From Caulifigura coniformis (GTDB lineage Bacteria; Planctomycetota; Planctomycetia; Planctomycetales; Planctomycetaceae): a DNA stretch of 64,000 nucleotides. Below, piece after piece: positions 40,964-48,089 of the stretch. The stretch covers positions 6,163,439 through 6,227,438 of the forward strand of contig NZ_CP036271.1 of the NCBI RefSeq assembly GCF_007745175.1, in the 5' to 3' direction. Position numbers and translations under genes: made by a program. How positions within the stretch are numbered: the first letter of the stretch is position 1; every line of letters begins with the position of its first letter. The notes below the pieces were generated by a model. It did no database searches. It saw only the letters and a program-made list of their open reading frames with translations, and was not told the DNA's origin.

Positions 40964-43408
40964 ATGCCGACGCCCGCTACCAAAGGCCAATCCGGAATGC
41001 AGAGCCTGAAATCCGATGCGCTGACCAGGGAAGAGCTGCGTCTGATCCATGCGTGGTGGCGTGCCGCGAACTACCTGTCGGTCGGACAGATCTATCTCTT
41101 TGACAACCCCCTGCTGAAAGAACCGCTGACTCTCAAACACGTCAAGCCGCGGCTTCTGGGGCACTGGGGAACTACGCCGGGGTTGAACTTTATCTATGCC
41201 CACCTGAACCGCGTGATCAAACGCGACAGCCTGAGCGTTCTGTATATCGCCGGTCCGGGGCACGGCGGTCCGGGGCTCGTCGCCTGCAACTACCTCGAAG
41301 GAACTTACAGCGAGGTCTACCCGAATATCACGGAAGACTGCGCGGGCATGAAGCGACTGTTCAAGCAGTTCTCATTTCCCGGCGGAATTCCCAGCCACGT
41401 GGCGCCGGAGACTCCCGGTTCGATTCACGAGGGGGGCGAACTGGGGTACGCGCTGTCGCATGCTTTCGGCGCGGCGTTCGACAATCCCGACCTGATCGTG
41501 GCGTGCGTCATTGGAGACGGGGAAGCGGAAACGGGGCCTCTCGCCACCGGCTGGCATGGCAACAAGTTTCTGAATCCTGCCCGCGACGGCGTCGTTCTGC
41601 CGATCCTGCATCTCAACGGTTACAAGATCGCCAATCCCTGCGTCCTGGCTCGTATCAGTCACGACGAACTCGAATCGCTGATGAAGGGATACGGCTACAC
41701 GCCCTACTTTGTCGAAGGCAGCGATCCCGAGAAGATGCACCAGCAGATGGCCGAGACGCTCGACCTGGTCGTAGCTGAAATCAAGTCGATCAAGGCAGAG
41801 GTCCGGAACGGATCGACCCGGCGCCCGTTGTGGCCGATGATCGTCCTTCGGAGTCCGAAAGGCTGGACTGGGCCGAAGGAGGTCGACGGCAAGAAAACGG
41901 AAGATTACTGGCGGTCTCACCAGGTGCCGATGGGCGATATGGCCCACCCCGGACACGTCAAGATCCTGGAAGACTGGCTTCGCAGCTACAAGCCGGAAGA
42001 GCTGTTTGACGGCGACGGACGCCTGGTCGAAGAGCTGCGCGAGCTCTCCCCCACAGGCGAGCTGCGGATGAGCGCCAACCCGCACGCAAACGGCGGCGTC
42101 CTGCTCAGGGATCTCCGTCTCCCGGATTTCCGCGACTACGCGGTCCCGGTGACGTCTCCCGGCGCCGGCAACGCCGAATCGACGCGGGAAATGGGCCGCT
42201 TCCTGCGGGACGTGATGAAGCTGAACCTGGACTCTGCCAACTTCCGGCTGTTCAGTCCGGACGAGAACAACTCCAACCGCTGGCAGGACGCGCTGGAAGT
42301 GACCAATCGCACCTGGATGGCCGAGAAATATGACTACGACGACCATCTCGCCTGCGATGGCCGGGTGATGGAGATGCTGAGCGAGCATCAATGCCAGGGA
42401 TGGCTCGAAGGCTACCTGCTCACGGGGCGGCATGGCTTTTTCTCCTGCTATGAAGCCTTCATTCACATCATCGATTCGATGTTCAACCAGCACGCCAAAT
42501 GGCTGAAGGTGTGCAATCAGATCCCCTGGCGGAGGTCGGTCGCGTCGCTCAACTATCTGTTGTCGAGCCACGTCTGGCGGCAGGATCACAATGGATTCAG
42601 CCATCAGGATCCCGGCTTTATCGACCACGTCGTCAACAAGAAAGCGGAGGTGATCCGTGTCTACCTTCCGCCCGATGCGAACTGCCTGCTGTCGGTGACT
42701 GATCACTGCCTTCGCAGCCGCAACTACATCAATGTGGTGGTTGCCGGAAAGCAGCCGGCGCCGCAGTGGCTCACGATGGACGAGGCGGTCAAGCACTGCA
42801 CGGCCGGCATCGGCATCTGGGAGTGGGCCAGCAACGACAAGGGGTATGAGCCCGACGTCGTGATGGCCTGCTGTGGAGATGTCCCGACCCTGGAAACTCT
42901 GGCGGCCGTCGACCTGCTGCGACGTCATCTGCCCGATCTCAAGGTCCGCGTGGTGAACGTCGTCAACCTGATGAAGCTCCAGTCGGACCGGGAACATCCG
43001 CATGGGCTCACGGATGCCGAGTTCGACGTCCTGTTCACCAGGGACAAGCCGGTGATCTTTGCGTTTCACGGTTATCCCTGGCTGATTCACCGGCTGACCT
43101 ACCGCCGCACGAATCACAACAACCTGCATGTGAGGGGTTACAAGGAGGAGGGGACGACGACGACCCCGTTCGATATGTGCGTGCTCAATCAGATCGATCG
43201 CTTCCATCTGTTCGCGGACGTGATTGACCGGCTTCCGCAACTCGGCTCGAAGGCCGCATACGCCAAGCAGGCGATTCGCGACCGGCTGCTCGACCACAAG
43301 TCGTGGATCGAGGAGCACGGCGAAGATCACCCCGATATCGTCGGCTGGCGGTGGAGCGGCACCCCAGCGTCGGTCGCTCGGTCATCGACCGAAGGCGATA
43401 ACGTCTGA
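40964..43408 (+). CDS. xfp: Xylulose-5-phosphate/fructose-6-phosphate phosphoketolase
   Basis: The 814-residue TPP enzyme cleaves xylulose 5-phosphate or fructose 6-phosphate with phosphate to acetyl phosphate plus a shorter sugar phosphate. It shows family blocks [37 protein letters not shown], the TPP motif [30 protein letters not shown] and [15 protein letters not shown]. Length is typical. The product acetyl phosphate is the substrate of the fused protein encoded at 43928-46246, so the two should work in series as a carbon-efficient route to acetate/ATP or acetyl-CoA. The upstream gap to the RND pump is 113 nt. Confidence 0.95.
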
Positions 43409-43456: not shown

Positions 43457-43768
43457 GTGTTTCGTCCGAACTTCATCATGGTCTCGGACGCATTCGTCGT
43501 CGTTCCAGGGGGCATCGGAACGGTGCTGGAAACCATGATGATCTGGCAGCTGCTGCAGGTGCGAAGAATGAATGAGTGCCCGCTGATCCTCGTCGGCCCG
43601 ATGTGGCAGGGACTGATCGAGTGGAGCCGGTCGGCCATGCTGAGGCCCGAGTTCCCGCTCGCCAGTCCGGAAGATTTCGAGATCCCGCTCTGTGTGACGG
43701 ATGGTCAGGCCGCGATCGATCAGTTGCGAGCTCACCACGCGGCCTGGCAGGCGACAGCCAATGCGTGA
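43457..43768 (+). pseudogene. Truncated LOG-family (lysine-decarboxylase-like) remnant
   Basis: The 103-residue frame carries the C-terminal half of the LOG family, with SDAFVVVPGGIGTVLET (PGGxGTxxE motif) and the helix MMIWQLLQVRRMNECPLIL. The N-terminal nucleotide-binding half with GGxxGLM is missing, and only 48 nt separate this frame from phosphoketolase, so there is no room for it. LOG proteins act on nucleoside monophosphates (cytokinin-type phosphoribohydrolase). A GTG at 43457 could start a short product, but loss of half the domain argues for a remnant. Confidence 0.65.
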
Positions 43769-43927: not shown

Positions 43928-46246
43928 ATGAGCCCTTCAGAGATCGTCACGTATCTCAAGAACTCCGTCCGGGTGTTCCGCGATTTCACCGCGGACGAGC
44001 TGCAAACCCTGGTCGATGGCTCGCAGGCGAAATCCTTCGAGACCAGCGAGTTCATCCTGCACCAGGGACACGAAGCACGGTGTTTCGGGGTCGTCCTCGG
44101 CGGGACCATCGACGTCTCGATTCCGGGCGAAGGAGGAGTGCGGAAGTCGCTCGGCCTGCTGCGCGTCGGCGAGACGTTCAACGAATTTGCGCTGATGACG
44201 GGCGACGCCATGCCAGCCGACTTGATCGCCCGGTCGCGCTGCGACGTCCTCTTGATTCCTGTGGCGCAGTTTCAGTCGATCATCCTCACGAAGCCGGAGT
44301 CGATCCACGCCCTCTCGAAGACCATTGCGAACCGCATCCAGTCGGTCCTTGCAGATCCGCAATCCGCCGCGGCAGTAAATCGCACTGTTGAAGACCCTTA
44401 CGGTCTGCAGCTCAAAGGAGAGCGAGCCGAAAAGATCCTCGTCATCAACTGCGGCTCGTCCTCGCTCAAGTACACCTTCTACGACACGGCCGACGAATCC
44501 CGCACGGTCCGTGGCAAGGTCGAACGCATCGGCATCAGCGGCACGCGACTCCGTCAGCAGGGCGCGGGCGGCGAAATCGAACGGCAGCTCTCCACGGCCG
44601 GATTTCCCGAAGCGTTCGAAGCCATGGTGGCCGAACTCACCTCCCATGGTGCCGGAGTGATCCACGGTGCCGGCGACGTGAGCGTTGTCGCCCATCGTGT
44701 CGTTCACGGCGGCGAGAAATTCACAGAAGGGACACTGATCACTGAGGACGTTCTCGCAGACATTGAAGCCCTGAATTCCCTGGCCCCTCTGCACAATCCG
44801 GTGAATGTCGCCGGCATCCGCGAGATGCGACGGTTGTTCCCTGCGGCGCCGCATATCGCCGTGTTCGACACCGCCTTTCACCATACGCTCCCCGCCTTTG
44901 CCTACTTGTACGGGCTCTCCTACGAGTACTACGAAAAACATGCCATTCGGCGCTATGGTTTCCACGGAACCTCGCACCAATATGTCAGCCTGCGGACCGC
45001 GCAGTTTCTGAACCGCCGGCCGAACGAACTCCGCCTCGTCTGCTGTCACCTGGGCAATGGATCGTCGGTATGCGCCATCGATCACGGCCGCTCAATGGAT
45101 ACGTCGATGGGGTTCACACCGGCCGAAGGGCTGATCATGGGGACGCGGTGCGGCGATATTGATGCGGGCGTGATCGCGTTTCTCGAGAGGAACGAGCACC
45201 TCACGGCGACGCAGACCGAAGATCTCCTCAACAGGAAGAGCGGACTCCTGGGCCTGTCGGGCATCTCCAGCGACATGCGCGAAGTGCAGCAGGCGGCCGA
45301 GGAAGGCAACCCGCGCGCCCTGGTCGCCCTGAAGGCGTACTGCTACCGCGTCCGGAAGTACATCGGCGCCTATGCGGCTTCGATGGGAGGAATGGACGCC
45401 GTCGTCTTCACCGGTGGGATCGGGCAGGGGAGCGCGGCAGTCCGGGCGATCGCGTTGCAGGGCCTCGACTGCATGGGCGTCGTCCTCGACAGGCAGCGAA
45501 ATCGCGAAGCTGACGGCTTCGGCGACGTCCAGCGGATCTCGACCGACGATTCCCCCGTCAACGTCCTTGTCGTGCCGGCCGACGAAGAGCGAATGATGGC
45601 GAGAGAGGCGCTCCGCACCCTCAGCCGCTCGTACCTGACACAGGCGATCACCGCGCGGAACCAGCAGCCGTTCCCGGTCGAGGTGTCGGCGCATCACATC
45701 CATCTCGCGCAGGAGCATGTCGATCGGCTCTTCGGGCACGGGCATCAACTCACGCGAATCTCCGATCTGTCGCAGCCTGGGCAGTACGCATGCCAGGAGC
45801 AGCTGACGATCGTTGGACCAAAAGGACGCATTGAACGCGTCCGCGTCCTGGGTCCGGCACGAAAGCAGACGCAGATTGAGATCGCCATGACCGAGCAGTT
45901 CCGGCTCGGAATCCATCCTCCGATTCGTGAGAGCGGCGATATCGCCGGCACGCCTGGCTGCACTCTGGAAAGCACGACGGGACGGATTGAAGTGGAGTGC
46001 GGTGTGATCTGTGCGATCAGGCACATTCACATGACTCCCGAAGATGCGCTCCGTTACGGAGTGCGCGACAAATCCATCGTGCGGGTGCGGATCGCGGGCG
46101 ATCGGGAACTGGTGTTTGGCGATGTCCTCGTTCGCGTCGATCCGGCATTTCGGCTCGCCATGCATATCGACACCGACGAGGCGAACGCCGCCAATGTCAG
46201 GACCGGCGCGCAGGGATACATCGTGGACATCCAGGGGGAAGGCTGA
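43928..46246 (+). CDS. Three-domain fusion: cyclic-nucleotide-binding domain, acetate kinase, PduL phosphotransacylase
   Basis: The 772-residue protein has three parts. Residues 1-140 are a CNB/Crp-type sensory domain (ILHQGHEARCFGVVLGGTIDV, FNEFALMTGDAMPADLIARS). Residues 168-555 are a complete acetate kinase: NCGSSSLKY, HRVVHGGEKF, HNPVNVAGI, FDTAFHHTLP, GFHGTSHQYV, CHLGNGSS, GTRCGDIDAG, FTGGIGQ and PADEERMMARE. Residues 575-772 are a full PduL domain with HHIHLA, GPKGRIERVRVLGP, SGDIAGTPG, IRHIHMTPEDA and HIDTDEANAA, including the zinc-binding His pairs. AckA makes ATP and acetate from acetyl phosphate; PduL makes acetyl-CoA. With phosphoketolase upstream, one polypeptide would control the fate of acetyl phosphate, perhaps gated by a nucleotide ligand. 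Confidence 0.92.
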   Translation: MSPSEIVTYLKNSVRVFRDFTADELQTLVDGSQAKSFETSEFILHQGHEARCFGVVLGGTIDVSIPGEGGVRKSLGLLRVGETFNEFALMTGDAMPADLIARSRCDVLLIPVAQFQSIILTKPESIHALSKTIANRIQSVLADPQSAAAVNRTVEDPYGLQLKGERAEKILVINCGSSSLKYTFYDTADESRTVRGKVERIGISGTRLRQQGAGGEIERQLSTAGFPEAFEAMVAELTSHGAGVIHGAGDVSVVAHRVVHGGEKFTEGTLITEDVLADIEALNSLAPLHNPVNVAGIREMRRLFPAAPHIAVFDTAFHHTLPAFAYLYGLSYEYYEKHAIRRYGFHGTSHQYVSLRTAQFLNRRPNELRLVCCHLGNGSSVCAIDHGRSMDTSMGFTPAEGLIMGTRCGDIDAGVIAFLERNEHLTATQTEDLLNRKSGLLGLSGISSDMREVQQAAEEGNPRALVALKAYCYRVRKYIGAYAASMGGMDAVVFTGGIGQGSAAVRAIALQGLDCMGVVLDRQRNREADGFGDVQRISTDDSPVNVLVVPADEERMMAREALRTLSRSYLTQAITARNQQPFPVEVSAHHIHLAQEHVDRLFGHGHQLTRISDLSQPGQYACQEQLTIVGPKGRIERVRVLGPARKQTQIEIAMTEQFRLGIHPPIRESGDIAGTPGCTLESTTGRIEVECGVICAIRHIHMTPEDALRYGVRDKSIVRVRIAGDRELVFGDVLVRVDPAFRLAMHIDTDEANAANVRTGAQGYIVDIQGEG

Positions 46247-46253
46247 GGCTCCA

Positions 46254-48089
46254 TTGAAGGCTTCCCTTGCCGGGATATCGGACGCGATCTCGTGGGCCCT
46301 CCATGGGGTTCGCGAACGGTTGCGCGACGTGTTTGTCTGCTCGCTGGCGTTCGAGATTCTGAATCTCGCCGTGCTTGCGCCTCTTGCTGCCGCCGGCTTC
46401 CGCCTGTTGATGCAGCGCTGGGGCAGGGCCTCCGTCGGCAACTTCGAGATCGCGTTGTTCCTGCTGTCGCCTCCCGGACTGGCCGCCCTCGTCGGCATCG
46501 GCAGCCTGATCGTTGCGACGCACTTCCTGGAGGTGGCGGGGTTGATGCGACTTCTGGCGGACCGGCGACTGCACTGGTGGTCGGCTTTCGGCAGCGCGGC
46601 CGGGCTGTTCTATCGCATCGTTCAGCTCGGGCTCAGGCAGGTCGCCGTCTATCTGTTGCTGGCAGTCCCGTTCCTCGCGGCGATCGGCATCGTCTACCTG
46701 TCGCTCTGGTCCGGCCGCGACCTGAACGGCCTGATCATTCTCCGACCCGCGGAGTTCTGGATTGGCGCCGGGCTCGGGGCGGCCATTGCGGGGATCTATG
46801 TGCTGCTTGCGGCCCGGCAGTTTCTGCGATGGCTCTTTGCCATCCCGGTCCTGCTGTTCGAGTCTTCGCAGTCGTCCCGCGCGGCTCTCCAGCGCAGCAC
46901 CGAACTGACGCGCGGCCGACTTCCGGTGCTGGCGGCCGCAATCGCCTCCTGGGGATTCATTCAGGTCTGTTCCGCGGGACTCGTCGTCGCCCTTGCCAAG
47001 ATCGTTGCGGAGTGGATCCTCGGCAGGATCGGGAATTCACTGACAGTCGCGCTCCCCGTCACCGCGGTGCTGCTCCTGGCGAATGCGGCTGTCCTCATGG
47101 CATTATCGATGTTTGGGTGGGCAACCTTCTCGGCGCTGGTGCTGGGGTTGTACAGGCAGGCCGCCGGAGAAGTCCTCATTGCCAGGGAAGCGATTCTGCC
47201 TGAAGAGCTTCCGTCGCGGATTCCACTGCGATGGGTCGCTGTCACGGGGCTCGTGGCGCTCTGCGTCGGCGGACTGATCGTCAGCGGCGGATTGCTGGGT
47301 CAATTGCAGCTTGGCGAAGCCGTGCAGATCACGGCTCACCGGGCCGGTGCGCTGCGCGGACCTGAGAACAGTGTGGCGGCCGTGCGGCAGGCCATTGCGG
47401 ATCGGGCCGACTGGGCCGAAATCGACGTGCAGCGCACGGCGGATGACAAACTGGTGGTGATGCACGACATCGACCTCGCCCGGATCGGAGGCGGCAAGCG
47501 CAGGGTCGATCAGGCGACCCTCGCGGAAATCCAGTCGCTCGATATCGGAAGTCCGTTTGGACCGCAGTTCGCCGGCGAAAAGGTTCCCACCTTTGCAGAA
47601 GTGCTCGCGGCCGCCGGCAGGGAACTCCGGTTGAATGTCGAACTCAAGCCGCACGGCAGGGGCGATGTCGGGCCTCTGACGGAGAGGGTGGTGGCGGCGA
47701 TCCAGAATGCGGGGCTCGTCGATCGCTGCCGAATCTGCTCGCAATCGTATGAGAGCCTGCAACGGGCCCTCGAACTCGAGCCGCGGTTGCAGGTCGGCTT
47801 TATCGCCGCCGTCGCAGTGGGCGACCTGGCCCGGCTGGATGTGGACTTCCTGATGGTCGGCGCCGATCGGGCGAAGCGAGCCCTGATCGATCGGGCCGCC
47901 CTCCAGGAGATGGAGGTTCACGCGTGGACGGTGAACTCGGCCGATCAGGTGGCGCCGTTGATCGACGAGGGAGTCGCCAACATCATTACGGACGATCCCG
48001 TGTTGATTCGGCAACGTCTGAACGAAGTGCAGGCGCTCAGCCCGGTCAACCGGCTGCTCCTGCGTGCCCGTCATGAACTGATGCGCTGA
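46254..48089 (+). CDS. Membrane-anchored glycerophosphodiester phosphodiesterase (GdpD family)
   Basis: From a TTG at 46254 the product is 611 residues. The first 350 residues form a multi-helix membrane domain of the GdpD-associated type. The last 250 form the GDPD TIM barrel, with AHRAGALRGPENSVAAV (catalytic His-Arg and Glu-Asn), EIDVQRTADDKLVVMHD, LNVELKPHGRGD and a C-terminal AWTVNS. It should hydrolyse glycerophosphodiesters to glycerol 3-phosphate and an alcohol. TTG was chosen because GAGG lies 5 nt upstream and the frame further up overlaps the preceding gene; an ATG alternative exists only far inside the previous CDS. It follows that gene by 7 nt, so it is co-transcribed. Confidence 0.85.
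   Translation: MKASLAGISDAISWALHGVRERLRDVFVCSLAFEILNLAVLAPLAAAGFRLLMQRWGRASVGNFEIALFLLSPPGLAALVGIGSLIVATHFLEVAGLMRLLADRRLHWWSAFGSAAGLFYRIVQLGLRQVAVYLLLAVPFLAAIGIVYLSLWSGRDLNGLIILRPAEFWIGAGLGAAIAGIYVLLAARQFLRWLFAIPVLLFESSQSSRAALQRSTELTRGRLPVLAAAIASWGFIQVCSAGLVVALAKIVAEWILGRIGNSLTVALPVTAVLLLANAAVLMALSMFGWATFSALVLGLYRQAAGEVLIAREAILPEELPSRIPLRWVAVTGLVALCVGGLIVSGGLLGQLQLGEAVQITAHRAGALRGPENSVAAVRQAIADRADWAEIDVQRTADDKLVVMHDIDLARIGGGKRRVDQATLAEIQSLDIGSPFGPQFAGEKVPTFAEVLAAAGRELRLNVELKPHGRGDVGPLTERVVAAIQNAGLVDRCRICSQSYESLQRALELEPRLQVGFIAAVAVGDLARLDVDFLMVGADRAKRALIDRAALQEMEVHAWTVNSADQVAPLIDEGVANIITDDPVLIRQRLNEVQALSPVNRLLLRARHELMR

Follow-up and report, generated by a model that had tools for sequence, protein, structure and literature searches.

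Acetyl phosphate serves cells as an energy carrier and also as a signal, and a cyclic-nucleotide-binding (CNB) domain joined to an enzyme of acetyl metabolism is seen in the mycobacterial lysine acetyltransferase Rv0998, which is regulated by cAMP. Fusions of acetate kinase (AckA) to the phosphotransacylase PduL (Ack-PTAC) were noted by Erbilgin et al. 2016, who described two PF06130 signatures joined to acetate kinase and proposed substrate channelling (PMC4784909). In the passages of PMC3477478 that deal with acetate activation in Kuenenia, it is treated via acetyl-CoA synthetase and no fusion is shown. Here we describe a gene that joins all three domains, CNB, AckA and PduL, in a 64,000-nucleotide stretch of the Caulifigura coniformis genome (contig NZ_CP036271.1, positions 6,163,439 to 6,227,438; hereafter the window). 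We consider it probable that the protein is a bifunctional AckA/PduL enzyme, likely serving as a cytosolic Ack-Pta route, and that its CNB domain has lost the usual mode of cyclic-nucleotide binding. The gene and its domains, in window positions, are as follows.

43928..46246, + strand: CNB-AckA-PduL fusion gene, 772 aa, with profile matches and a layout common to the 80 related loci kept for comparison.
44030..44287, + strand: CNB domain (residues 35-120), with a non-canonical pocket in which Glu86 is kept and Met95 takes the place of the phosphate-binding Arg.
44432..45604, + strand: acetate kinase domain (residues 169-559), with all tested hallmark catalytic residues there.
45674..46198, + strand: PduL-type phosphotransacylase domain (residues 583-757), in which the two metal sites and the Arg that contacts phosphate are kept.

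The open reading frame (ORF) contains no internal stop. A first-pass annotation, made from the letters of the window alone, had placed the three domains in one polypeptide at 43928-46246, and both the coordinates and the domains are confirmed by Pfam matches to cNMP_binding (PF00027, residues 35-120, E 6.9e-14, 52 bits against a cut-off of 27.5), Acetate_kinase (PF00871, residues 169-559, E 2.5e-143, 477.9 bits against a cut-off of 22) and PTAC (PF06130, residues 583-757, E 7.4e-78, above the curated cut-off). Moreover, the protein scores 472.8 bits with NCBIfam TIGR00016 (cut-off 293.4) and 265.3 bits with NF011652 (cut-off 209). Predicted structures recover the CNB, AckA and PduL folds; the AckA part matches 1g99 with a TM(target) of 0.89 and the PduL part matches 5cuo_A with a TM(target) of 0.92. 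The models also contain a long helix at residues 123-154, C-terminal to the CNB domain. With AckA in front of it and only ~15 aa between its end and the C-terminus, the PduL domain would presumably lack an encapsulation peptide.

A search of genomes for relatives by exact 8-residue words gave 446 candidate stretches, of which the best 80 were kept, such that the total number may be larger. All 80 kept loci have CNB, AckA and PduL; L017 has an in-frame stop within the PduL part, and in L023 and L054 the fusion begins at a contig edge. The prospect that no relative would have such an architecture thus fails. A local fusion or assembly error is ruled out by these 80 other loci together with the host genome, G000, which is a single contig and 99.91% complete, so that the fusion did not arise from wrongly joined contigs. 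Genes in the relatives were called with a codon-usage caller; simple ORF picking overlooked genes in high-GC loci. The hosts are Planctomycetota (including Brocadia), Verrucomicrobiota, Spirochaetota, Fibrobacterota, a Hydrogenedentes metagenome-assembled genome (MAG), Myxococcota/'delta' MAGs, a Bacteroidota MAG and Alphaproteobacteria. The largest share, L029-L083, comes mostly from Rhodocyclales genera, with some titled Beta-, Gamma- or unspecified Proteobacteria, and carries the working label 'Rhodocyclales branch' below.

The catalytic residues of both enzymes are intact in the window protein. AckA residues, numbered as in M. thermophila AckA and mapped by alignment, include His123, Asp148 and His180, which we take to be catalytic-site residues. 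All three are kept, together with Asn7, Ser10, Ser11, Ser12, Lys14, Arg91, Val93, Leu122, Asn211, Pro232, Gly239, Arg241, Gly331 and Glu384, so that the hallmark residues of the ATP side and of the acetate side are complete among those tested (roles of the latter fourteen as given in the residue descriptions of PMC4390882 and PMC6461089). For PduL, likewise numbered via alignment, His48, His50, Arg103, Glu109, His157, His159 and His204 correspond to H590, H592, R645, E651, H699, H701 and H746 of the window protein and are all kept; the roles of the metal ligands and Arg103 are those given in the structural description in PMC4784909. Every aligned row that covers the metal ligands and Arg103 keeps them. 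If the Rhodocyclales branch is set aside, 42 rows remain, and in these no AckA hallmark site has more than four exceptions, not counting gaps. The complete AckA and PduL motif sets claimed in the first-pass annotation are therefore borne out at each residue tested.

The host genome gives this protein a plausible place in metabolism. We found no PF01515 match, and hence no canonical Pta, in the complete genome G000. Its only two PF00936 bacterial microcompartment (BMC) shell genes (C1:4337377-4338127) adjoin a separate PduL gene and lie ~1.87 Mb from the fusion (C1:6207366); a microcompartment role for the fusion is thus unsupported. Given that Pta was not found and that the other PduL sits beside the shell genes, the fusion is likely the cytosolic Ack-Pta route of G000. 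PF01515 was also without a match at 1e-10 in 13 of the 26 genomes whose fusion has an intact kinase. We propose that the PduL part would interconvert acetyl-CoA and Pi with acetyl phosphate and CoA, and that the AckA part of the same chain would interconvert acetyl phosphate and ADP with acetate and ATP, probably in an oligomer with a high local concentration of acetyl phosphate. Acetyl phosphate could also enter from an adjacent phosphoketolase (Xfp). The CNB domain would be a recruited module, most likely allosteric or oligomerising, with a different ligand or none. Both activities, the direction of flux, the oligomer and any regulation are in this sense predictions from sequence. The earlier proposal that AckA and PduL use one substrate for opposite ends, ATP plus acetate or acetyl-CoA, would apply only if acetyl phosphate comes from outside, for example from Xfp; otherwise the two enzymes follow one another in a single reversible pathway.

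We next consider the CNB domain. Modelled alone (mean predicted local distance difference test score, pLDDT, of 85.3), it gives structural matches to CNB domains up to Z 19.8, the best being the cGMP-bound CNB-B domain of PKG II (5bv6; root-mean-square deviation, rmsd, of 2.2 over 144 residues), although such a search holds no information on which ligand fits. Met95 aligns with the phosphate-binding Arg of PKA, and this Arg is found in none of the 91 members with a residue at the position (97 aligned, 6 gaps). By contrast, three CNB proteins of relatives and a CNB-FHA protein from the same genome do carry Arg there, and the alignment at this position is therefore sound. The three from relatives, which have canonical-Arg CNB domains, are L109:3158-5377 (a mechanosensitive channel by Pfam), L108:1061-2533 and L107:1484-2404. 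Compared with what is expected of a functional receptor of cyclic nucleotide monophosphates (cNMPs), the window sequence has the Glu of the phosphate-binding cassette and lacks the Arg. With the Arg absent in 91/91, ordinary cAMP or cGMP sensing by the fusion is unlikely. This bears on the idea of a gated branch point, in which the CNB domain binds cAMP or cGMP and chooses whether acetyl phosphate made by Xfp becomes ATP plus acetate or acetyl-CoA. The domain content, the fold match to a cGMP-bound domain and the retained Glu86 speak for it, yet the loss of the Arg from the fusions, set against its presence in the four other CNB proteins, makes it improbable.

Several points weigh against the favoured reading of a bifunctional cytosolic enzyme whose CNB domain has left ordinary cyclic-nucleotide binding. 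G000 also has a separate AckA (612467-613657) and the separate PduL (4338251-4338901). That the fusion is the sole AckA found in 14 of the 26 intact-kinase genomes speaks for this reading, but the count may be overstated as the compared genomes are mostly MAGs, which may be incomplete. In the full-length model, how the domains sit with respect to one another is predicted with limited certainty (mean pLDDT 78.5, predicted template modelling score, pTM, 0.59). Finally, the pocket is under constraint: the cassette Glu, presumably the ribose contact, is kept in 26/26 of the window protein and L004-L028, and position 98, one residue past a conserved Ala, is acidic (Asp or Glu) in 88/91. Such constraint leaves room for a small ligand, conceivably even an unusual nucleotide. 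The description of the domain as ligand-sensing in the first-pass annotation thus keeps some footing in the Glu, and loses it at the Arg.

Two further explanations for the CNB domain follow from these patterns. It may be purely structural, a ligand-free dimerisation module of the domain and its C-terminal helix that joins the AckA and PduL parts. The Arg is gone throughout, the Glu is lost in 38/55 of the Rhodocyclales branch (kept in 17/55), the CNB changes faster than either enzyme domain and Arg136, within the long helix, is invariant among 29 aligned proteins. However, the fully kept Glu in the other set and the acidic residue at position 98 suggest a ligand or a fixed contact, and we regard this explanation as possible but somewhat doubtful. 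We are just as tentative about a CNB domain that senses another small molecule, such as a nucleoside or central metabolite, in the way of kinetoplastid PKA, which has lost the same Arg. T. brucei PKAR, which has Thr318 or Asn442 in place of the Arg, binds purine nucleosides (according to the account of its sites in PMC10959531); Thr or Ile occupies that position in 69/91 fusion members, and the guanosine-bound T. cruzi PKAR 6hyq is a structural neighbour (Z 17.8, rmsd 3.0, 144 residues). On the other side, many cNMP-bound domains rank equal to or above 6hyq. Moreover, the position of PKA Ala202, which holds the trypanosome pocket Glu, is Ser or Ala in 88/91 members and Glu in just two, L021 and L024. 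Therefore, the same ligand is not predicted.

The distribution of the fusion is patchy. Within the genus, family and class of C. coniformis it was found in 1/59 genomes, namely G000 itself, and spread by descent within these groups is thus unsupported. An order-level sample around Dechloromonas agitata had it in 3/200 genomes. A phylum sample of 392 genomes gave 20 matches beyond a 1e-155 cut, of which 10 are three-part (G000 included); the rest comprise one CNB-AckA (L124), four AckA-PduL proteins without CNB (L125, L127, L128, L129), two that run into the end of a contig (L126, L130) and three with AckA only (L131-L133). In an AckA tree of 80 rows the window protein lies within a 15-row set (support 100/99) with Verrucomicrobia, Schlesneria, a 'delta' MAG and Brocadia-type proteins, and it does not group with AckA proteins of its own family; its closest relative is L004, at 76% identity. 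We infer that the fusion was acquired by horizontal transfer.

The same tree bears on how the protein was assembled. Complete AckA-PduL proteins without CNB are L125 (607 aa) and L127-L129 (599-602 aa), and their existence also counts against the cAMP- or cGMP-gated branch point. All CNB-bearing proteins form one group with L125 and L126 (99/97), whereas L127 and L129 fall outside it, at an exact place that is moderately supported. Therefore, fusion of AckA to PduL probably happened at least twice, L127-L129 apparently representing an independent event. A separate observation is the CNB-AckA protein at L124:1519-3204 (-), which has 561 aa and no PduL part and whose host belongs to the same family as Brocadia. 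When the Rhodocyclales branch is left out, the distances between domains correlate across 32 proteins (CNB-AckA 0.83, AckA-PduL 0.85, CNB-PduL 0.75), with 0/999 permutations as high, which suggests that CNB, AckA and PduL moved largely as one unit. The linker between CNB and AckA reads DPYG/A in most members compared, L121 and L122 being exceptions.

The Rhodocyclales branch differs at the kinase site. Here the ATP-side residues are replaced: Ser12 by Gln, Glu384 by Asp and Lys14 by His or Arg in 55/55, Asn211 by Ile or Val in 52/55, and Ser10 by Ile or Leu, Gly239 by Pro and Gly331 by Asp in 49/55 each. The acetate side and PduL are unchanged, with Asn7, Arg91, Val93, His123, Asp148, His180, Pro232, Arg241 and all PduL ligands intact in 55/55. 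Single variants of M. thermophila AckA at Asn211, Gly239 and Gly331 lose activity ~6- to 200-fold, and the pyrophosphate (PPi)-using AckA of E. histolytica also differs at these three sites (both from the variant descriptions in PMC4390882/PMC6461089). An additional AckA is present in 9/9 searched genomes of this branch compared with 12/26 intact-kinase genomes (Fisher p 0.005, a test that ignores shared ancestry and genome incompleteness). The kinase half of this branch therefore appears to keep the acetate-kinase fold but to have given up the normal use of ATP. Since the E. histolytica enzyme is altered at the same sites, a changed phosphoryl donor and a pseudo-kinase are equally possible. 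A bolder joint proposal, which we hold to be speculative, is that the CNB domain was re-tooled for a non-cyclic-nucleotide ligand and that the Rhodocyclales AckA half became a non-ATP module controlling an intact PduL, either as an acetate or acetyl phosphate sensor or as a PPi- or polyphosphate-using kinase (the group includes polyphosphate accumulators). In D. agitata itself, a 795-aa frame with a weak XFP_N match (G084:C1:1585381-1586211, 46.7 bits) lies ~270 bases after a separate AckA (C1:1583954-1585111) and may be a divergent phosphoketolase-like gene.

Three other features of the window lie around the fusion.

40964..43408, + strand: phosphoketolase Xfp, 814 aa (XFP_N, XFP, XFP_C), from profile matches; a possible source of acetyl phosphate.
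43457..43768, + strand: LOG/TIGR00730 remnant, 103 aa, C-terminal part only (LOG/'lysine decarboxylase' profile positions 49-130 of 131).
46044-48089: GDPD gene, Pfam-supported; the codon-usage caller misplaced it, taking the antisense ORF 47103-48074 instead.

The gap between Xfp and the fusion is 519 nt, in agreement with the 520 nt of the first-pass annotation, and contains the LOG remnant. A full LOG gene (241-281 aa) lies directly upstream of the fusion in the Brocadia-type loci L149, L153, L155 and L156, and the remnant is plausibly left over from an Xfp...LOG-fusion arrangement. L149, which is the genome of L009 with a longer flank read, has a same-strand run of Xfp, a beta-CASP nuclease, transketolase, RpiB/transaldolase/phosphoglucose isomerase (PGI), LOG and, last, the fusion; the transaldolase/PGI-LOG-fusion part is kept in L153, L155 and L156, of the Brocadia-type family, and not in L154. 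A 1096-aa fusion of RpiB, transaldolase and PGI occurs upstream in L008:1099-4389 (by Pfam) and L149:8012-11302 (by similarity). In L006, Xfp is on the other strand and split over two ORFs with PPK2 in between. The expected setting in sugar-phosphate metabolism, phosphoketolase included, is thus seen in the window and in the L149 cluster, and both would favour the gated branch point. However, just 10/35 fusion genomes have a strong Xfp match over the full domain (E below 1e-160), with three weaker matches over the cut-off (23.9-46.7 bits) making 13/35, and Xfp is close to the fusion in only three: the window, L006 and L149. The link between Xfp and the fusion is therefore partial, which argues further against that gating.

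A conserved operon with Xfp is not the rule: among 81 fusion loci, comprising L004-L083 and the window locus, Xfp turns up only in the latter and in L006, with L149 in addition, in a count where flank lengths vary and many contigs are short. No conserved neighbour emerged, the largest neighbour cluster covering only 14 loci. Genes for malate/lactate dehydrogenase, pyruvate kinase, serine dehydratase or glycogen phosphorylase also occur nearby, as do unrelated ones such as transporters and a peptidase; neighbours are often of central carbon metabolism, without a fixed partner. An FNR-type box was found at two or fewer mismatches in 7 of 78 upstream regions, against 12.47 expected from first-order resampling, and so gives no signal. 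Acetyl phosphate made by Xfp can feed the fusion here, yet this is not the general job of the fusion.

A second CNB-enzyme fusion, of CNB with an aspartase/fumarase-type lyase, is encoded at G000:C1:4820052-4821917 (L112:550-2418 -), L016:4107-5963, L017:4115-5971 and L151:2720-4906, adjoining a DcuA/DcuB transporter gene in each of the four. It is present in 4/35 fusion genomes, two of which have two copies, and lies directly upstream of CNB-AckA-PduL in L016 and L017.

In summary, we have a single protein predicted to make and consume acetyl phosphate, tagged with a sensor fold that lacks its usual ligand contact. It offers a handle on how acetate flux is set in planctomycetes, anammox bacteria and Rhodocyclales, and on ligand change in CNB domains, while the altered-kinase branch is a natural test of an acetate kinase losing or changing its phosphoryl donor.

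The three-part form had been put forward as undescribed. That stands for the CNB part as far as searched, no CNB-AckA-PduL protein being named in the titles or abstract openings of the open-licence literature covered, but the AckA-PduL fusion is already known. The window protein shares with it the order of AckA then PduL in one ORF, and the section on fusions in Erbilgin et al. has no N-terminal CNB, altered pocket, Xfp or pentose-phosphate context, or altered Rhodocyclales kinase site. As in the Pta-AckA pathway (PF01515 plus PF00871), two consecutive reactions would run through acetyl phosphate, with PduL here in place of Pta and both activities predicted in one chain. Rv0998, a CNB-GNAT protein, likewise combines CNB with an acetyl-metabolism enzyme (4avb/4avc; Z 18.1, rmsd 2.8, 135 residues), but the enzyme is different and those structures are complexes with acetyl-CoA and cAMP, whereas the window CNB lacks the Arg. 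The CNB-lyase fusion also places CNB before an enzyme of central metabolism and also lacks the pocket Arg; its enzyme is different, and the lyase-fusion CNB of L016 is 21% identical to the window CNB. Lastly, the kinetoplastid PKA regulatory subunit shares a CNB without the phosphate-binding Arg (Thr or Asn there, in the site description of PMC10959531), but its defining pocket Glu is absent in 89/91 fusion members, and here the CNB belongs to a bacterial enzyme fusion.

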